Assembly (NCBI RefSeq): GCF_004349085.1
Contig: NZ_SMFM01000007.1
Coordinates: forward strand, 124,001-188,000
Source: Flavobacterium caseinilyticum
GTDB taxonomy: Bacteria > Bacteroidota > Bacteroidia > Flavobacteriales > Flavobacteriaceae
Direction: 5' to 3'
Length of the DNA stretch: 64,000 nt
This document shows positions 19,283-51,619 of the stretch, piece by piece. Positions within the stretch are counted from its first letter, which is position 1, and every line of letters begins with the position of its first letter. The position numbers and the translations under genes were made by a program. The notes beneath the pieces were generated by a model, which had not been told where the DNA came from, did not search any database, and worked only from the letters and a program-made list of their open reading frames with translations.

Positions 19283-21346
19283 TTACTCTTTCAATAGTCG
19301 ATTCAATTGAAATTGCTCGGCTTCATTTAATTCCAAAACTATTCTTTCCAAAGAAACTCTCATTTCTGGATTTTTTAATAATTTTCGAATATTATCTCTC
19401 CCAAATTTCGAGAATTGCCACATATGATGTGTAGTTGCATTAACCAAATTTCCCAAAACAACATCATTTATTATTTTGAAAGCAAGCAATTTCTCCAAAG
19501 CATTTTGACGTGTATTCGCTTCGTAATCGATTGATGAATACTGTATTAATTCGGTTTCCAAAGCTCGTTTATCGATAGCATAAGCTGGCGTTGACAAGGC
19601 CAATGTGAGCCACAATGTTCGTAAATTATAATCATTAAAACCCATCCAGGTTTTTGATTTATCCAAATATTGAATGCGTTGTTCCGGAAAATTACTCCAT
19701 AAATTATACAGCGCAATTTCTTGTGTTTGATACGATTTATCCCCTAATAAAGTTTCATATTGCGTTCTGAAACTCTCTGGAATTTCATTCAATGATGCAG
19801 CAACCGTTTGGCGCAATTGCACATTTTTAGTTTCTAAAGCTAAAATAAAAAGACTCTTTTTATCCTCCCATTTTTCATTTTTCACTTGATTCAGAATCGT
19901 TTCTTTTACCGAAAAATAAACATCAGATTGCATTGTTTTTTCCAAAAAATCTCTTTTCTCTAACAACGGTTTGTTTTTTAATTTATCAACTTCAAATAGG
20001 ATCTGAATCGATTTATTATTAAGTAATAAACTATTGGCTTGTTGCGTATTGAAAACGGTAGTCTCAAGCCATACTTTACTAAAATTAGCCAAATCATATC
20101 TTGATATTTTCCTGATTTCAGCAAAGAAATCCTCAGTATTCACATTCTGAAATGCATGTTTTTTCAAATACTTTTTCACCGCTTTTTTAAATGCCTTATC
20201 TCCTATTTCTTCATGTAAAACAAAAAGTGCCCAAGCTCCTTTTTGGTAAAAAGTCAACGAACTGGCTTTAGCATTCAAAACAGGAATGGTATCCGTTCGG
20301 GAAGCAAATTTTAATTGTGATGCCGACTCATTTAATTTGGAATAAAAATAATCTTCTCCATAGATTTCCTTTTCGGCCAGCAACGCATAATAGGTAGCAA
20401 AACCTTCCTGCAACCAATGGTGTTTTCCGCTTTCGGCAGTGACTAAATTTCCAAACCACTGATGCGCTAATTCATGTGCATTTACATTTGTGTAACTTCT
20501 GTCCTCAAAACCTGTGGAATCGACCACATAACGCGTGTTGAAAAGCGTTGCTGATGTATTTTCCATTCCGGCGTACAAGAAATCCCGAACGGGCACTTGT
20601 TTATAAATACCCCAAGGATACTTTACTCCTATTTCTTTTTCTAAAAAATCAAACATCGTTTTAGAACCGCGATACGTTGGGTCAAATTTGGTAACGTCTT
20701 TTGGTTCCAAATACATTTCTAATGGAATTCCCGACTTTGATTTATGGATGTTTTTTTCAAATTTTCCGATGGCAAGCATCAATAAATAGGAACTCATTGG
20801 TTTTTGCATTTGATATTGCCAAAGCGAAAGTCCATCAAGTCCTGATTTAAATTTCAAAATTCCATTTGAAATTACCTGATACTCGTTATTGCATACAATA
20901 TTCAAATTAAAAACCACTTTTTCATTCACATCATCAAAGCTCGGAAACCAATGGCTGGTGTATTTTCCTTGTCCTTGTGTCCAAATTTGTACATTATCAT
21001 TTGCTTCTGAACCAACGAAATAAATAGTTTGTTTTGGCTTTGCCAAATACTGAAAAGTCAGATTATTTTTTCCTTTTTTAAACGGAAAAATAATTTGCAA
21101 TTGTTTTTGTGTATTGTTATAATTAACCGATTTTCCGTTCAATTTCAAATTAGAAAATTCCATATTTTGAGCATCAATTTTAATGGTATCAATGGATTTC
21201 AAAACGTCAAAATCATAATCAACATCTCCAGAAACTGATTTTTCAATTGGATTTACGGTAATTTTTCCGAGAACCGATTTAAAATTAACAAATTGGGTTT
21301 GTTGGGCAAACGTGAACGTGGAAATAAAAAAGAATAGATATTTCAT
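19283..21346 (-). CDS. Secreted M1-family metallopeptidase (aminopeptidase N-like)
   Basis: A zinc aminopeptidase of 687 residues. An export signal MKYLFFFISTFTFAQQ starts at the chosen ATG. The N-terminal beta domain is followed by the exopeptidase signature region YAGMENTSATLF (the GAMEN-like loop) and the zinc site HELAHQW with the third ligand Glu in WLQEGFATYYA (about residues 288-312). The HEAT-like C-terminal region is short. No T9SS sorting domain is evident. The start at 21346 overlaps the stop of the upstream RAYT gene as ATGA, which argues against the longer frame beginning 33 bases upstream. Confidence 0.9.
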   Translation of the reverse strand: MKYLFFFISTFTFAQQTQFVNFKSVLGKITVNPIEKSVSGDVDYDFDVLKSIDTIKIDAQNMEFSNLKLNGKSVNYNNTQKQLQIIFPFKKGKNNLTFQYLAKPKQTIYFVGSEANDNVQIWTQGQGKYTSHWFPSFDDVNEKVVFNLNIVCNNEYQVISNGILKFKSGLDGLSLWQYQMQKPMSSYLLMLAIGKFEKNIHKSKSGIPLEMYLEPKDVTKFDPTYRGSKTMFDFLEKEIGVKYPWGIYKQVPVRDFLYAGMENTSATLFNTRYVVDSTGFEDRSYTNVNAHELAHQWFGNLVTAESGKHHWLQEGFATYYALLAEKEIYGEDYFYSKLNESASQLKFASRTDTIPVLNAKASSLTFYQKGAWALFVLHEEIGDKAFKKAVKKYLKKHAFQNVNTEDFFAEIRKISRYDLANFSKVWLETTVFNTQQANSLLLNNKSIQILFEVDKLKNKPLLEKRDFLEKTMQSDVYFSVKETILNQVKNEKWEDKKSLFILALETKNVQLRQTVAASLNEIPESFRTQYETLLGDKSYQTQEIALYNLWSNFPEQRIQYLDKSKTWMGFNDYNLRTLWLTLALSTPAYAIDKRALETELIQYSSIDYEANTRQNALEKLLAFKIINDVVLGNLVNATTHHMWQFSKFGRDNIRKLLKNPEMRVSLERIVLELNEAEQFQLNRLLKE

Positions 21347-22044
21347 TCTGAACTTGAATTTATGGAATCTGTATTCCAATTTTTTGGATTATTTTTTATG
21401 TAGTGATATATGGTATCGAATGAATTATAATTTCGGACGATATGATCGTGATAATTTGATTGCCAAATGGTATTTATCATTGGTTGTTCCGTTTCTTTGG
21501 TAGAGACGCACTGCAGTGCGTCTCTACGTCGTGCGTCTTTACGTCGTGCGTCATTACTATTAATTAATGTATTAATTTGTTTGGTGGTAACCGATTTAAA
21601 AATTGCAACAAACGATGATATGGAATTCGGTTTCCGGGAGAATTTTTGTGGTTTTGATTCCGAATGGGAATCAGATTCCAATTGTAGAGACGCACTGGGT
21701 AAAGACGCACTGGGTAGAGACGCACTGGGTAGAGACGCACTGCAGTGCGTCTCTACAGACGGGATAGAATTATCATTTTTTATTTCAACCAACAAATGAA
21801 TATGATTGGGCATAACAACCCAATTATGGAAAAACCAACGTTCCCTAATTACAATTGATTTCAATAATTCCGTTTCAATGATTTTCCCATTATCGTTTAG
21901 TGTCATTTTATCATCAGCAATAGTTCCAAAAATACACTCTCTATTTTGAGCCACTAACGTAATGAAATAGATAGCTTCACTGGAATAATCCCAATTTTTT
22001 AATCTATTCGATTCGGTTTGATATCTATTTTTAAATAAGGGCAT
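21343..22044 (-). CDS. REP-associated tyrosine transposase (RAYT, IS200/Y1-like) with internal repeats
   Basis: A 233-residue Y1 HUH-type protein. RAYTs process palindromic REP elements but are themselves not mobile. The core is present: FKNRYQTESNRLKNWDYSS at the start, FITLVAQNR, the HUH motif VVMPNHIHLL (His-x-His), FVAIFKSVTTKQINTLI, NYHDHIVRN, and a C-terminal helix TIYHYIKNNPKNW with the expected catalytic Tyr. Two low-complexity insertions interrupt it: SASLP repeated four times (after VETHC) and DARRK/DARRR/DALQC. Both are encoded by 15-base repeats ending in a 28-base palindrome. These replace normally variable loops, so the enzyme may still work. The gene is start-coupled to the M1 peptidase gene. 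Confidence 0.88.
   Translation of the reverse strand: MPLFKNRYQTESNRLKNWDYSSEAIYFITLVAQNRECIFGTIADDKMTLNDNGKIIETELLKSIVIRERWFFHNWVVMPNHIHLLVEIKNDNSIPSVETHCSASLPSASLPSASLPSASLQLESDSHSESKPQKFSRKPNSISSFVAIFKSVTTKQINTLINSNDARRKDARRRDALQCVSTKETEQPMINTIWQSNYHDHIVRNYNSFDTIYHYIKNNPKNWNTDSINSSSE
21500..21557. repeat. REP-like palindrome plus 15-bp tandem units inside the RAYT gene, cluster A
   Basis: A perfect 28-bp palindrome (21500-21527) has half-site GTAGAGACGCACTG. It runs directly into degenerate 15-base units GTGCGTCTCTACGTC, GTGCGTCTTTACGTC and GTGCGTCATTAC (21516-21557). The 15-base period keeps the RAYT frame and encodes D-A-R-R-K type pentapeptides. Confidence 0.92.
21684..21756. repeat. 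REP-like palindrome plus 15-bp tandem units inside the RAYT gene, cluster B
   Basis: Three 15-base units GTAGAGACGCACTGG, GTAAAGACGCACTGG and GTAGAGACGCACTGG (21684-21728) lead into the same perfect 28-bp palindrome (21729-21756). The arrangement is the mirror image of cluster A. On the coding strand it specifies S-A-S-L-P repeats. Confidence 0.92.
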
Positions 22045-29800: not shown

Positions 29801-32800
29801 ATGAGTTTATCCACAACAAGTATTAGAAGACCTGTATTCACCATAGTAATTAATTTAGCGATTGTATTATTTGGAATAATTGGTTACACGTTCCTAGGGG
29901 TCCGCGAATTTCCTTCTATTGATCCGGCACAAGTTTCTATCCGAACGAATTATGCCGGTGCAAATGCTGACATCATTGAATCTCAGATTACAGAACCACT
30001 TGAAAAAGCAATTAATTCCATTGACGGAATTAGAAATGTAACATCTTCCAGTGCGCAAGGAAGCAGCAATATCACCATCGAGTTTAATTTGGATAAAAAC
30101 TTAGAAGATGCCGCTAATGATGTTCGTGATAAAGTATCACAAGCCGTTAGAAATCTTCCTCAAGACATTGACTCTCCTCCGGTAGTTTCGAAAGCCGACG
30201 CAAATGGTGATGCCATCATTTCGATGACCGTGCAAAGTGATACCCGTAATGCGTTAGAACTTAGTGATTATGCTGAAAATGTAATTTCACAACGTCTGGA
30301 GACTATTCCCGGCGTAAGTGGAGTTCAAATTTGGGGACAAAAAAGATATGCGATGCGTTTGTGGATTGATCCTATTAAACTGGCTTCTTACGGCTGTACC
30401 GTATCGGAAGTGAGAGATGCATTGAATAAACAAAACGTTGAATTGCCTTCTGGAAAACTAACGGGAGACAATACGGAATTGACGGTAAAAACAGTGGGAA
30501 ACCTTTCTACTGCTGAGGAATTCAATAATATCATTATCCGTACAGAAGGCGAAAAAGTGGTGCGTTTCAGCGATGTTGGATTAGCAAGCCTTGGACCTGA
30601 AAATGTAGAAACCAAAATGACACAATCCGGAACACCATTAGTTGGTGTTGCAATTGTGCCACTTCCGGGAGCGAATTACTTAGATATCTCTACTGCTTTT
30701 TATAAGGAATTCGAAAAATTAAAAAAGGATTTACCAAAAGATATTAAATTGAATATCGCCATTGACAATACAATTTTTGTAAAAAAATCAGTTATTGAAG
30801 TAGCGGAAACATTAGGGATTTCTATTGTTTTGGTAATTTTGATTATCTATCTATTCTTCCGGGATTGGGCAATTGCTTTCAGGCCATTGATTGATATTCC
30901 TGTTTCGCTGATCGCTACGTTCTTTATCATGTGGCTTTTTGGCTTTTCTATAAATGTATTGACATTATTGGCGATCGTTCTGGCAACTGGACTTGTTGTA
31001 GATGATGGAATTGTGGTCACCGAGAATATTTTCAAAAAAGTAGAAGAAGGCATGACGCCTATCGAAGCTGCGATCAAAGGATCTAACGAAATATTCTTTG
31101 CTGTAATTTCAATTTCAGTCACCTTAGCAGCGGTATTTCTTCCGGTAATTTTCCTCGAAGGATTTGTCGGGAGACTGTTTAGGGAATTTGGCGTCGTTAT
31201 TGGCGCAGCGGTACTGATTTCGGCTTTTGTATCTTTGACATTAACTCCGATGTTAAATGCTTATTTGATGAAAGGCGGCGAGCAAAAAAAATCAAAATTC
31301 TATATCCGTACCGAACCTTATTTTCAACAATTAAACAGTGGTTACGCAAATTCATTAAGCCGTTTTATGAAGAAAAAATGGTTGAGCTTTCCTATATTGA
31401 TTGCCTGTTTTGGATTAATTTATTTGTTTTTTAACCTTTTGCAAAAAGAAACCGCACCGTATGACGATCGTAGTGGTTTTGTCATGCGAATGTCCACACC
31501 CGAAGGTTCTTCTTACGAATACATGGATCGCTTCATGCAGGAAGTATCGCAGTTGGTCGATGACTCGATTCCGGGCAAAAAAGTAGCCTTGGTTATTACA
31601 TCTCCAGGTTTTGGATCTTCATCGGTAAACAGTGGTTTTATTCGGGTATCATTGGTGCAACCAAATGAAAGAACCGATTCGCAAAAAGAAATTGCAGAGA
31701 AACTAACCAAATGGACCAAGCAATATCCTGATGCAAAAACATCCGTAATCGAGCAACCAACAATTGCCGTAAACCGACGTGGTGGATTGCCAATCCAATA
31801 CATTATTCAAGCAACAAACTTTAAAAAACTGGAAGAAAAAATTCCTGTTTTCATGGATGAAGTTGCTAAAAACCCAACTTTTGCAGTTAGTGATGTGAAT
31901 TTAAAATTCAACAAACCAGAAGTTAATGTCACCATTGACAGAGAGAAAGCGGAAAGTTTAGGAATTTCAGTGATTGATATTGCACAAACGTTACAGCTTT
32001 CCTTGAGCGGACAGCGTTTTGGTTATTTCATGAGAAATGGAAAACAATATCAGGTTATTGGACAATTTGACCAAAAAGACCGTTCGAAACCACTGGATTT
32101 AACGTCTATGTTTGTGAAAAATAACATGGGACAATTAATTCAAATGGACAATGTGGTATCTATTGAAGAAAAAAGTAATCCGCCACAATTATACCACAAC
32201 AATCGTTACATGGCAGCCACTGTTTCTGCAGGTCTTGCTCCGGGCAAAAGTATCAGCGATGGAATTGATGCGATGAATGAAATTAAAGCGAAAGTTCTTG
32301 ACGATACTTTTACAACTGATTTAGGTGGAGAATCCAGGGATTTTGTTGAAAGTAGTTCGAACACTGCTTTTGCATTTGGACTGGCTTTGCTTTTGATATT
32401 TTTAATTTTGGCGGCACAATTTGAAAGTTTTATTGATCCTTTCATTATTATTCTGACCGTGCCCATGGCCGTTGCGGGAGCTTTATTCTCCTTGTGGTTA
32501 TTTGACCAGACCTGGAATATTTTCAGCCAAATTGGAACCGTAATGCTTATTGGTTTGGTAACCAAAAACGGAATCCTGATTGTCGAGTTTGCGAACCAGC
32601 TCCGGGAACAAGGCAAACCAAAATTAGAAGCCATATTAGAAGCTTCGGAAGCGAGATTACGACCAATTTTAATGACAAGTTTGGCCATTTCATTAGGCGC
32701 ATTACCAATTGCGATGTCACTTGGAGCAGCTTCTACCAGCAGAATTGGAATGGGAGTCGTTATTGTAGGTGGAACTATTTTCTCTTTAGTGTTAACGTTA

Positions 32801-32896
32801 TTCGTTATTCCAGCGATGTATTTAATGTGGTCAAGAGCCAGAAAACACTATCCAGAATTTGATCATATTGAAGAATATGAAAAAGATTTTAACTAA
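29801..32896 (+). CDS. RND efflux permease (HAE1/AcrB-like)
   Basis: A proton-driven inner-membrane exporter of 1031 residues. It opens with STTSIRRPVFTIVINLAIVLFG (first membrane helix), then GVREFPSIDPAQVSIRTNYAGA of the porter domain. The TM4 proton-relay acids are in ATGLVVDDGIVVTEN (about 399-413). The second half-repeat carries FGLALLLIFLILAAQFESF and GLVTKNGILIVEFAN, and TM12 closes near the C-terminus. Twelve membrane spans and two large periplasmic loops are evident. Substrate range is unknown. Confidence 0.95.
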   Translation: MSLSTTSIRRPVFTIVINLAIVLFGIIGYTFLGVREFPSIDPAQVSIRTNYAGANADIIESQITEPLEKAINSIDGIRNVTSSSAQGSSNITIEFNLDKNLEDAANDVRDKVSQAVRNLPQDIDSPPVVSKADANGDAIISMTVQSDTRNALELSDYAENVISQRLETIPGVSGVQIWGQKRYAMRLWIDPIKLASYGCTVSEVRDALNKQNVELPSGKLTGDNTELTVKTVGNLSTAEEFNNIIIRTEGEKVVRFSDVGLASLGPENVETKMTQSGTPLVGVAIVPLPGANYLDISTAFYKEFEKLKKDLPKDIKLNIAIDNTIFVKKSVIEVAETLGISIVLVILIIYLFFRDWAIAFRPLIDIPVSLIATFFIMWLFGFSINVLTLLAIVLATGLVVDDGIVVTENIFKKVEEGMTPIEAAIKGSNEIFFAVISISVTLAAVFLPVIFLEGFVGRLFREFGVVIGAAVLISAFVSLTLTPMLNAYLMKGGEQKKSKFYIRTEPYFQQLNSGYANSLSRFMKKKWLSFPILIACFGLIYLFFNLLQKETAPYDDRSGFVMRMSTPEGSSYEYMDRFMQEVSQLVDDSIPGKKVALVITSPGFGSSSVNSGFIRVSLVQPNERTDSQKEIAEKLTKWTKQYPDAKTSVIEQPTIAVNRRGGLPIQYIIQATNFKKLEEKIPVFMDEVAKNPTFAVSDVNLKFNKPEVNVTIDREKAESLGISVIDIAQTLQLSLSGQRFGYFMRNGKQYQVIGQFDQKDRSKPLDLTSMFVKNNMGQLIQMDNVVSIEEKSNPPQLYHNNRYMAATVSAGLAPGKSISDGIDAMNEIKAKVLDDTFTTDLGGESRDFVESSSNTAFAFGLALLLIFLILAAQFESFIDPFIIILTVPMAVAGALFSLWLFDQTWNIFSQIGTVMLIGLVTKNGILIVEFANQLREQGKPKLEAILEASEARLRPILMTSLAISLGALPIAMSLGAASTSRIGMGVVIVGGTIFSLVLTLFVIPAMYLMWSRARKHYPEFDHIEEYEKDFN

Positions 32897-51436: not shown

Positions 51437-51552
51437 GTTAGTTTTTTTATCCTGCGAATTTATTTATTTTTTGTTTAACATCTTCTGAAAAAATATTTTT
51501 TCGACATTATATCTAGGTGGCCAATTACAGATGCCTTTTAGCTTGTAAAAAA

Positions 51553-51586
51553 AAGTAGGCTATTCTCAAAAGAGAATAGCCTACTT
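51553..51586 (-). terminator. Strong intrinsic terminator after the M48 peptidase gene
   Basis: AAGTAGGCTATTCTC (51553-51567) and GAGAATAGCCTACTT (51572-51586) form a perfect 15-bp stem with an AAAA loop. A T run follows on the minus strand. Confidence 0.92.
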
Positions 51587-51619
51587 ATATGTTCTATTTA
51601 AACGGTAAATTTGAAAGTA

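Follow-up and report, generated by a model that had tools for sequence, protein, structure and literature searches.

The window, i.e. the whole 64-kb stretch of DNA analysed here, contains a gene for a REP-associated tyrosine transposase (RAYT, or TnpA-REP; locus L033) that carries two copies of a palindromic REP inside its reading frame. Sequence comparisons indicate that this embedded REP is most likely the cognate site of the encoded enzyme and that it is kept in place. The explanation that we favour as a whole, and consider likely, is that of a vertically inherited RAYT of subclass 2.4 with its own cognate double-foot REP embedded and kept in cis. It is based on the position and the frame of the REP, its cognate matching, its conservation, the distribution of its copies and the covariation of its bases with distinct regions of the protein.

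The RAYT gene and its embedded palindromes

The features considered are the following, in the 5' to 3' order of the gene, after the ORF itself:

21343..22044, minus strand: RAYT / TnpA-REP ORF of 233 aa, subclass 2.4-like, with the motifs NHIH, WQ and YIKNNP
22006..22038, minus strand: residues 3-13 (N-terminal), covarying with REP position 5
21796..21807, minus strand: HuH motif NHIH, residues 80-83 (sequence motif)
21729..21756, unstranded: loop-1 double-foot REP, a perfect 28-bp palindrome encoding VETHCSASL with GTA in frame; its place and phase are common to relatives
21684..21728, unstranded: three 15-nt half-site units adjoining the loop-1 REP (SASLP, three times)
21580..21615, minus strand: helix alphaC, residues 144-155, covarying with REP positions 10-13
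21528..21557, unstranded: two degenerate 15-nt half-site units adjoining the loop-2 REP (DARRK, DARRR)
21500..21527, unstranded: loop-2 double-foot REP, a perfect 28-bp palindrome encoding RRDALQCVST in a shifted phase
21433..21465, minus strand: W194-Q195 through residue 204, covarying with REP position 7, with weaker support
21400..21402, minus strand: presumed catalytic tyrosine Y215 (YIKNNP, residues 215-220), a nearly invariant column, with the catalytic role usual in the family

In profile searches, the window ORF matches Pfam Y1_Tnp with 24.6 bits (cut-off 23) and, in two stretches, NF047646 (NCBIfam, REP-associated tyrosine transposase) with 53.2 bits, which does not reach the curated cut-off of 80, a database rule and not a biological feature. 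Among solved sequences, the family profile matches E. coli TnpA-REP 4ER8 only (E 4.5e-9), and a PHROGs search gives only a weak match to a family of unknown function. The AlphaFold2 model (mean pLDDT 84, pTM 0.77) has a Y1/HuH fold and matches, by structure comparison, 4ER8 and IS200/IS605 transposases. This Y1 HuH fold is common to the window RAYT and to IS200/IS605 TnpA (IS608, ISDra2), but the window RAYT lacks their mobile, multi-copy character: one full-length RAYT of its kind was found in the host genome and it is syntenic in relatives, so that an IS200/IS605 insertion was rejected. A pseudogene was rejected as well, since dN/dS is 0.063-0.102 between the window RAYT and five relatives, the frame is open and the motifs are intact, and so was an assembly artefact, as this arrangement is met again at the corresponding place in relatives.

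The perfect 28-bp palindrome GTAGAGACGCACTGCAGTGCGTCTCTAC is present twice inside the ORF, at 21500-21527 and 21729-21756, as the preliminary description of this DNA had reported. At no more than 2 mismatches, its half-site GTAGAGACGCAC is found 9 times in the 64-kb window, always within 21500-21756 and never outside it, against a mean of 0.91 in shuffled windows, of which 0/100 reached 9. The clusters at 21684-21756 and 21500-21557 do mirror each other, with 58-nt arms that are 86% complementary. Each of them had been credited with three repeat units; this is correct for 21684-21756, whereas 21500-21557 has two degenerate extra units and reaches three only if the right half of the palindrome itself is counted. 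The 15-nt period keeps the reading frame and yields the pentapeptides initially described, SASLP three times on one side and DARRK/DARRR on the other, and both loops are enclosed, as stated then, by the HuH (80-83) and Tyr (215-220) motifs. The 1.5-kb flanks of the window gene contain no strict double-foot REP. RNA folding gives stable hairpins from the palindromes (z -2.7 to -4.5) but, as any such palindrome would be expected to do so, this result was not used as evidence.

In the AlphaFold2 model, residues 89-141 have no secondary structure and lie between strand 81-88 (beta3) and helix 142-176, which is alphaC. Loop 1 sits between this strand and alphaC, and loop 2 at the end of alphaC, before W194-Q195. 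The mean pLDDT is 55-66 for blocks of 91-130 and 52-58 for 171-190, most of the core being at 91-98; both loops carrying an embedded REP are predicted to be disordered and on the surface.

Subclass 2.4 corresponds to RAYT group 4 and is abundant among Cyanobacteria and Bacteroidetes; it has canonical and double-foot REPs (GT[AG]G...C[TC]AC), and a large majority of its genes have REPs in their close neighbourhood (Corneloup et al., 2018; PMC6006769). In the passages of that paper devoted to the subclass, its unique feature is that REPs are inserted within the tnpA-REP genes with the frame kept, in general in the part that separates HuH from Tyr. The embedded REP of the window RAYT is an already published class feature, and the initial statement that REPs normally lie outside the gene is not supported for a subclass of which in-frame insertion is the published hallmark. 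The window gene shows the motifs NH[IFV]H, WQ and YIxNNP of this subclass (as NHIH, W194-Q195 and YIKNNP), its variable-length beta3-alphaC insertion (residues 89-141), its in-frame REP and its genome-repeated double-foot REP, the 28-mer being found in the host genome, where a count had been proposed, at 13 places with no more than 3 mismatches, 8 of them exact and two of the exact ones in the RAYT gene. It differs from the description in these passages by having two separate insertion loops, one between beta3 and alphaC and the other between alphaC and beta4, each accompanied by a half-site array, in mirror orientation; the base-by-region covariation and the sole-copy conservation reported below are additions to that description. 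No earlier report of either in group 4 was recognised in the open-licence PMC literature, preprints excluded, nor, in the open-licence PMC literature, of palindrome identity at dS 0.94 despite a dN/dS of 0.06-0.12.

Two other systems can be compared, within what their published accounts cover. E. coli TnpA-REP (group 2 / 2.2, 4ER8) is alike in fold, helix alpha3/alphaC, WQ region and GTAG foot, but its REPs are bulged whereas the double-foot REPs of the window are perfect palindromes (PMC8266576). Intragenic GTAG REPs and the Rickettsia RPE are likewise palindromes in frame within coding regions, but their hosts are unrelated genes, whereas here the host would be the gene of the cognate nuclease (PMC3733652).

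Embedded REPs among related RAYTs

Related ORFs were collected from a contig profile scan (best 80 of 430), from 299 genomes of the genus and from 395 genomes of the phylum; a part of the genus and phylum matches was used, mostly top-scoring ones, and the sample is not random. The 304 loci gave 313 ORF matches, 294 of them full-length, and 271 distinct proteins after identical ones were merged, near-identical ones being kept separate. With a strict REP defined as a double-foot GTRG...CYAC palindrome, 110 of the 271 RAYT ORFs contain one or more, in all 116 REPs (0.683/kb), compared with 0.073/kb in the 1.5-kb flanks (57 in 777 kb); codon-shuffled CDS give 0.0015/kb. An internal REP is not required, as 161/271 related RAYTs have no strict one. 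A strict REP is present in 40 of the 77 named full-length ORFs and in 16 phyla, from 26 examined groups that include two with no phylum name.

The embedded REPs are 28 nt (94), 29 nt (21) or 32 nt long (1, probably spurious). They are in phase 0 in 91 cases and in phase 1 in 25, the phase with a TAG stop being used by 0/116, and 112/116 are located at core positions 91-110, in the loop after HuH, the others at 139 (2) and 43-45 (2). Tandem arrays are present in 93/271 CDS, and their period is divisible by 3 in 104 of 114 CDS arrays vs 102 of 210 flank arrays, flanks including coding DNA. Arrays can also be very long or placed elsewhere: in L047 (G027:C37; ORF L047:1489-2571, 363 aa from stop to stop), a 48-nt unit that includes a REP core (16-aa repeats) recurs about 11.5 times in the loop, and L052 and L062 have tandem pentapeptides at core position 42, before HuH, a third insertion site. 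Those of L062 are NPDEN-like, in about 11 copies, and a GGACAGGTCGCGACCTGTCC palindrome adjoins the array.

At the genome level, the pattern GTAGRGRCN{8,14}GYCYCTAC has 229 sites in 88 of the 299 genus genomes. Inside the 97 RAYT ORFs examined for it, a part of the genus RAYT matches, are 24 of these sites (66 kb, for a genome total assumed to be 1.15 Gb), and in G006, G013, G062, G085 and G254 the sites are solely in the RAYT. Both a RAYT and sites are found in 61 genomes, a RAYT alone in 42, sites alone in 27 and neither in 169 (Fisher p 7e-16, kinship ignored).

The strongest rival explanation is that the embedded REP is functionless and simply tolerated: REPs would land in or near the RAYT gene through the cis-acting nascent protein, insertions breaking the frame or the core would be lost, and the loops would bear the remainder. 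The disorder predicted for both loops, the non-REP tandem repeats that fill the loop too and the enrichment of REPs in the flanks as well would fit with such tolerance, but perfect stems form a spike among the RAYTs, with 13/13 pairs in 94/271 and zero in codon-shuffled loops or in a CDS control stretch. With the conservation data presented further below, we regard it as rather unlikely that the REP is merely tolerated.

Cognate matching and covariation

In the 28 RAYTs that have both internal and flanking REPs, the mean best identity between internal and flanking arms is 0.853, 17 being identical; it falls to 0.497 when flanks are shuffled among genes, and 0/2000 shuffles reach 0.853. This match, the dispersed copies in the host genome and the covariation described here make it very probable that the palindrome is the cognate REP of the gene, itself rightly identified as a RAYT from the outset.

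Covariation was analysed on 109 RAYTs with one REP each, 1 of the 110 being dropped as it had no 28- or 29-nt REP; insert columns 90-120 were excluded, the effective number is 82.6 of 109 at 70%, and the REPs of this set had been selected for palindromy. By weighted mutual information, the N-terminal columns come first for REP position 5, and high values are found at columns 146-150 for position 7 and at columns 122-130 (alphaC) for positions 10-13. A scan of 135 nine-column segments, by partial correlation vs the rest of the protein, gives its maxima at columns 2-10 for position 5 (0.65) and at columns 122-130 for positions 10-13 jointly (0.30) and for position 12 alone (0.34). Position 7 is divided between two segments, columns 2-10 and columns 142-150; positions 10 and 11, when considered alone, peak at columns 50-66 and not in alphaC, which counts against the assignment.

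Each REP base was also predicted from RAYTs less than 55% identical. The best segments, picked on the same data, predict position 5 in 93% of cases (columns 1-15), position 7 in 94% (columns 140-154) and positions 10, 11, 12 and 13 in 72, 60, 81 and 73% (columns 121-134). For positions 5, 7, 10, 11, 12 and 13, the majority guess reaches 64, 70, 59, 38, 34 and 47%, and whole-protein neighbours 84, 85, 51, 39, 57 and 49%. Single columns follow simple rules: at column 9, I, T or V goes with A5 in 67/67 and R with G5 in 28/31; R at column 147 accompanies A at position 7 in 52/52, but N at this column is seen with A in 17 and with G in 27; A at column 125 accompanies C at position 12 in 22/22. The window gene obeys these rules (T10 with A5; A147 with C10 and C12).

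Such covariation could reflect common descent only, REP and protein regions sharing one gene tree without any recognition. The embedded REPs do belong to the gene itself, neighbours chosen on the whole protein are enough to predict positions 5 and 7 in 84-85% of cases, and the best segments were picked on the data that they predict. We nevertheless find this account improbable, given that distinct REP positions choose distinct, structurally sensible regions among 135 segments of the same tree, and given two further comparisons. The first uses 51 disjoint sister pairs at matched identity (single-test p-values; limits adapted to the gaps in the N-terminal region). In pairs that differ at position 12, the identity of alphaC is below expectation (p 3e-5), as it is for position 10 (p 4e-5); for position 5, it is the N-terminus that stands out (p 1e-4). 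Helix columns 50-71 respond too (p 0.005 for positions 10-13), and the post-WQ region gives no separation for positions 10-13. For position 7, the N-terminus (p 0.001, n=4) is favoured over the post-WQ region (p 0.066, n=6); position 7 is the weak point of the code, its post-WQ assignment being weaker than the others. Tree-based independent pairs are underpowered, with 2-5 supported pairs per test, too few for significance; where the residue differed, its direction was nearly always as expected.

The second comparison concerns 12 other RAYTs with flanking REPs only, predicted from neighbours less than 70% identical with the segments chosen on the embedded-REP set. Positions 5, 7, 10, 11, 12 and 13 are right in 11, 11, 10, 6, 10 and 9 of the 12, position 11 being poorly predicted, whereas the majority guess gives 4, 5, 3, 4, 1 and 7 and whole-protein neighbours 9, 10, 4, 4, 6 and 6. 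The rules transfer to REPs that flank the RAYT gene. The regions found by covariation are in agreement with the contacts of E. coli TnpA-REP, alpha3 being taken as alphaC: in the published account of that complex, alpha3 contacts the bulge (K82) and also the stem, and GTAG is contacted by residues around beta4 (PMC8266576).

Conservation in place and copies elsewhere

In L040, L091, L097 and L222, the RAYT lies between homologues of the two genes that adjoin the window gene, and in the available stretch of L217 the aminopeptidase-like neighbour alone was found; the names of the neighbours are putative and follow their motifs. Among the window gene and its five relatives, dN/dS is 0.06-0.12 in the 13 of 15 pairs with a finite dS. 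The loop-1 REP of the window is identical at 28/28 positions to that of L217 (dS 0.94), L091 (dS 1.40) and L222 (dS 1.49), and at 27/28 to that of L040 (dS 1.26) and L097 (dS 1.71). The makeup of the arrays differs: L040 and L091 have upstream units (VETHD, VETHN) and the window gene has downstream ones (SASLP). The window, L040 and L091 have a loop-2 copy; L217, L222, L097 and L041 have none. As it is common to syntenic relatives, the loop-1 REP is probably old in the window lineage. The preliminary description had proposed that the repeats invaded or expanded within the gene while remaining translatable: they are indeed translatable, the arrays and the loop-2 copy do vary between species, and the word "invaded" calls for caution in the case of the loop-1 REP. 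It had also considered that the link could be undone by relatives without any tie between RAYT and palindrome, or by close strains in which unrelated sequence encodes the same loops. Neither was found in the survey; the relatives do show the link, and several close ones carry this REP DNA in the corresponding loop.

The persistence of near-perfect palindromes at dS 0.94-1.71, when the rest of the loop appears, by eye, to be unalignable, argues against their mere tolerance. The other side of the record is not empty: loop-2 copies are gained or lost among relatives, the internal copies of G014 have decayed, an in-frame REP joins two trp-like genes in the host genome (L013, G000), and in one group the sequence that surrounds the REP in the loop is conserved to a fair degree. 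In this group (L046/L082/L086/L087), the contrast between REP and loop is modest because the rest of the loop is kept too, e.g. 131/134, 97/134 and 104/149 aligned bases, for 26-28/28 in the REP.

In some genomes, the REP was found in the RAYT alone. In G168 (L217), the window REP is found once at no more than 3 mismatches, inside the RAYT; G006, G085, G176 and G239 each have one copy of the REP of their own RAYT at the same threshold, inside it; and G035 (L040) has two matches, the number in its RAYT. Copies of the own REP outside the RAYT were thus not found, at no more than 3 mismatches, in these six relatives, for G035 by count only, and the persistence seen in G168 and G035 also speaks against tolerance. 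Two of the observations that weigh against the favoured explanation belong here: G168, G035, G176 and G239 also contain sites of other REP cores, and G201 has 22 copies of the window REP at no more than 3 mismatches and zero in its examined RAYT interval.

These copy numbers bear on a concerted evolution of REPs, in which dispersed copies would overwrite the internal one by gene conversion or repeated insertion and keep it young and matched. In G000, G069, G134 and G135, dispersed copies exist and the internal copies equal them, so that sequence exchange could explain the identity there. In the six relatives with no outside copy found, however, the internal palindrome is fully or almost fully preserved, and between L086 and L087, 95% identical, the stem shows a paired change, from GAGAC/GTCTC in L086 to GATAC/GTATC in L087, which also speaks against overwriting. 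As a general account, overwriting is in our opinion improbable, to about the same degree as common descent is for the covariation. Hairpin-templated repair, known as quasipalindrome correction, keeps the arms of a palindrome complementary without selection, and the paired changes between close relatives (L086/L087, L088/L096) could each be one such event. This repair would preserve the pairing and not the bases, whereas L033 and L217 share 28/28 bases at dS 0.94; we consider it improbable as the cause of the conservation.

If the REP is a cognate site retained in cis, as we favour, the following course can be proposed. When the locus is single-stranded, during replication or as mRNA, the REP would fold into a hairpin in vivo, which the encoded protein would recognise. 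The pairs close to the GTAG foot would be read by the N-terminal strand and the post-WQ segment, those of the distal stem by helix alphaC. Action in cis would be the reason why the embedded copy is retained, most likely as a site of binding or nicking with feedback on the gene, and a matched enzyme-substrate pair would be kept together. The half-site arrays would expand and contract beside the REP, only frame-keeping changes persisting.

A broader claim, towards and against which we lean equally, is that subclass-2.4 RAYTs are self-labelled units: the same nucleotides would encode a loop and the conserved cis hairpin that the protein would read, and be selected even as a sole copy, and a readable stem code, the foot-proximal pair being read by the N-terminus and the distal stem by alphaC, could be worked out from individual genes, including those from metagenomes. 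In the papers considered here, RAYT biochemistry deals with groups 2 and 3, and the choice of REP by RAYTs was tested on three enzyme-REP pairs from these groups (PMC8266576). Should embedded REPs prove to be cognate, every gene of this kind would name its substrate; the present survey would then provide more than 100 paired enzyme-substrate records, and the specificity code of hairpin-reading HuH nucleases would become directly testable. The genomes with the REP of the RAYT found in the RAYT only would be a clean place to ask how the enzyme acts without other targets.

In the host genome as a whole, the 12-nt half-site has 28 exact places, and half-site arrays also lie beside some of the dispersed REP copies, with a spacing of 13 or 15 (15 in the RAYT gene). 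The dispersed REP of L003 (G000:C12:564269-564416) has nine forward half-sites at 15-nt spacing and a terminal palindrome, other dispersed arrays having a 13-nt spacing. In L013 (G000:C2), a copy of the window REP with 1 mismatch (palindrome at 32795-32822) lies between trpF-like and trpB-like sequences, names given from the sequence. It is translated in frame (RRDALQYVST) within a single 636-aa ORF (L013:278-2188, minus strand), which looks like a fusion of TrpF to TrpB by way of a REP linker. Finally, the window itself contains, at 51534-51605, an inverted repeat with 34-nt arms, 76% complementary, and a 4-nt loop.
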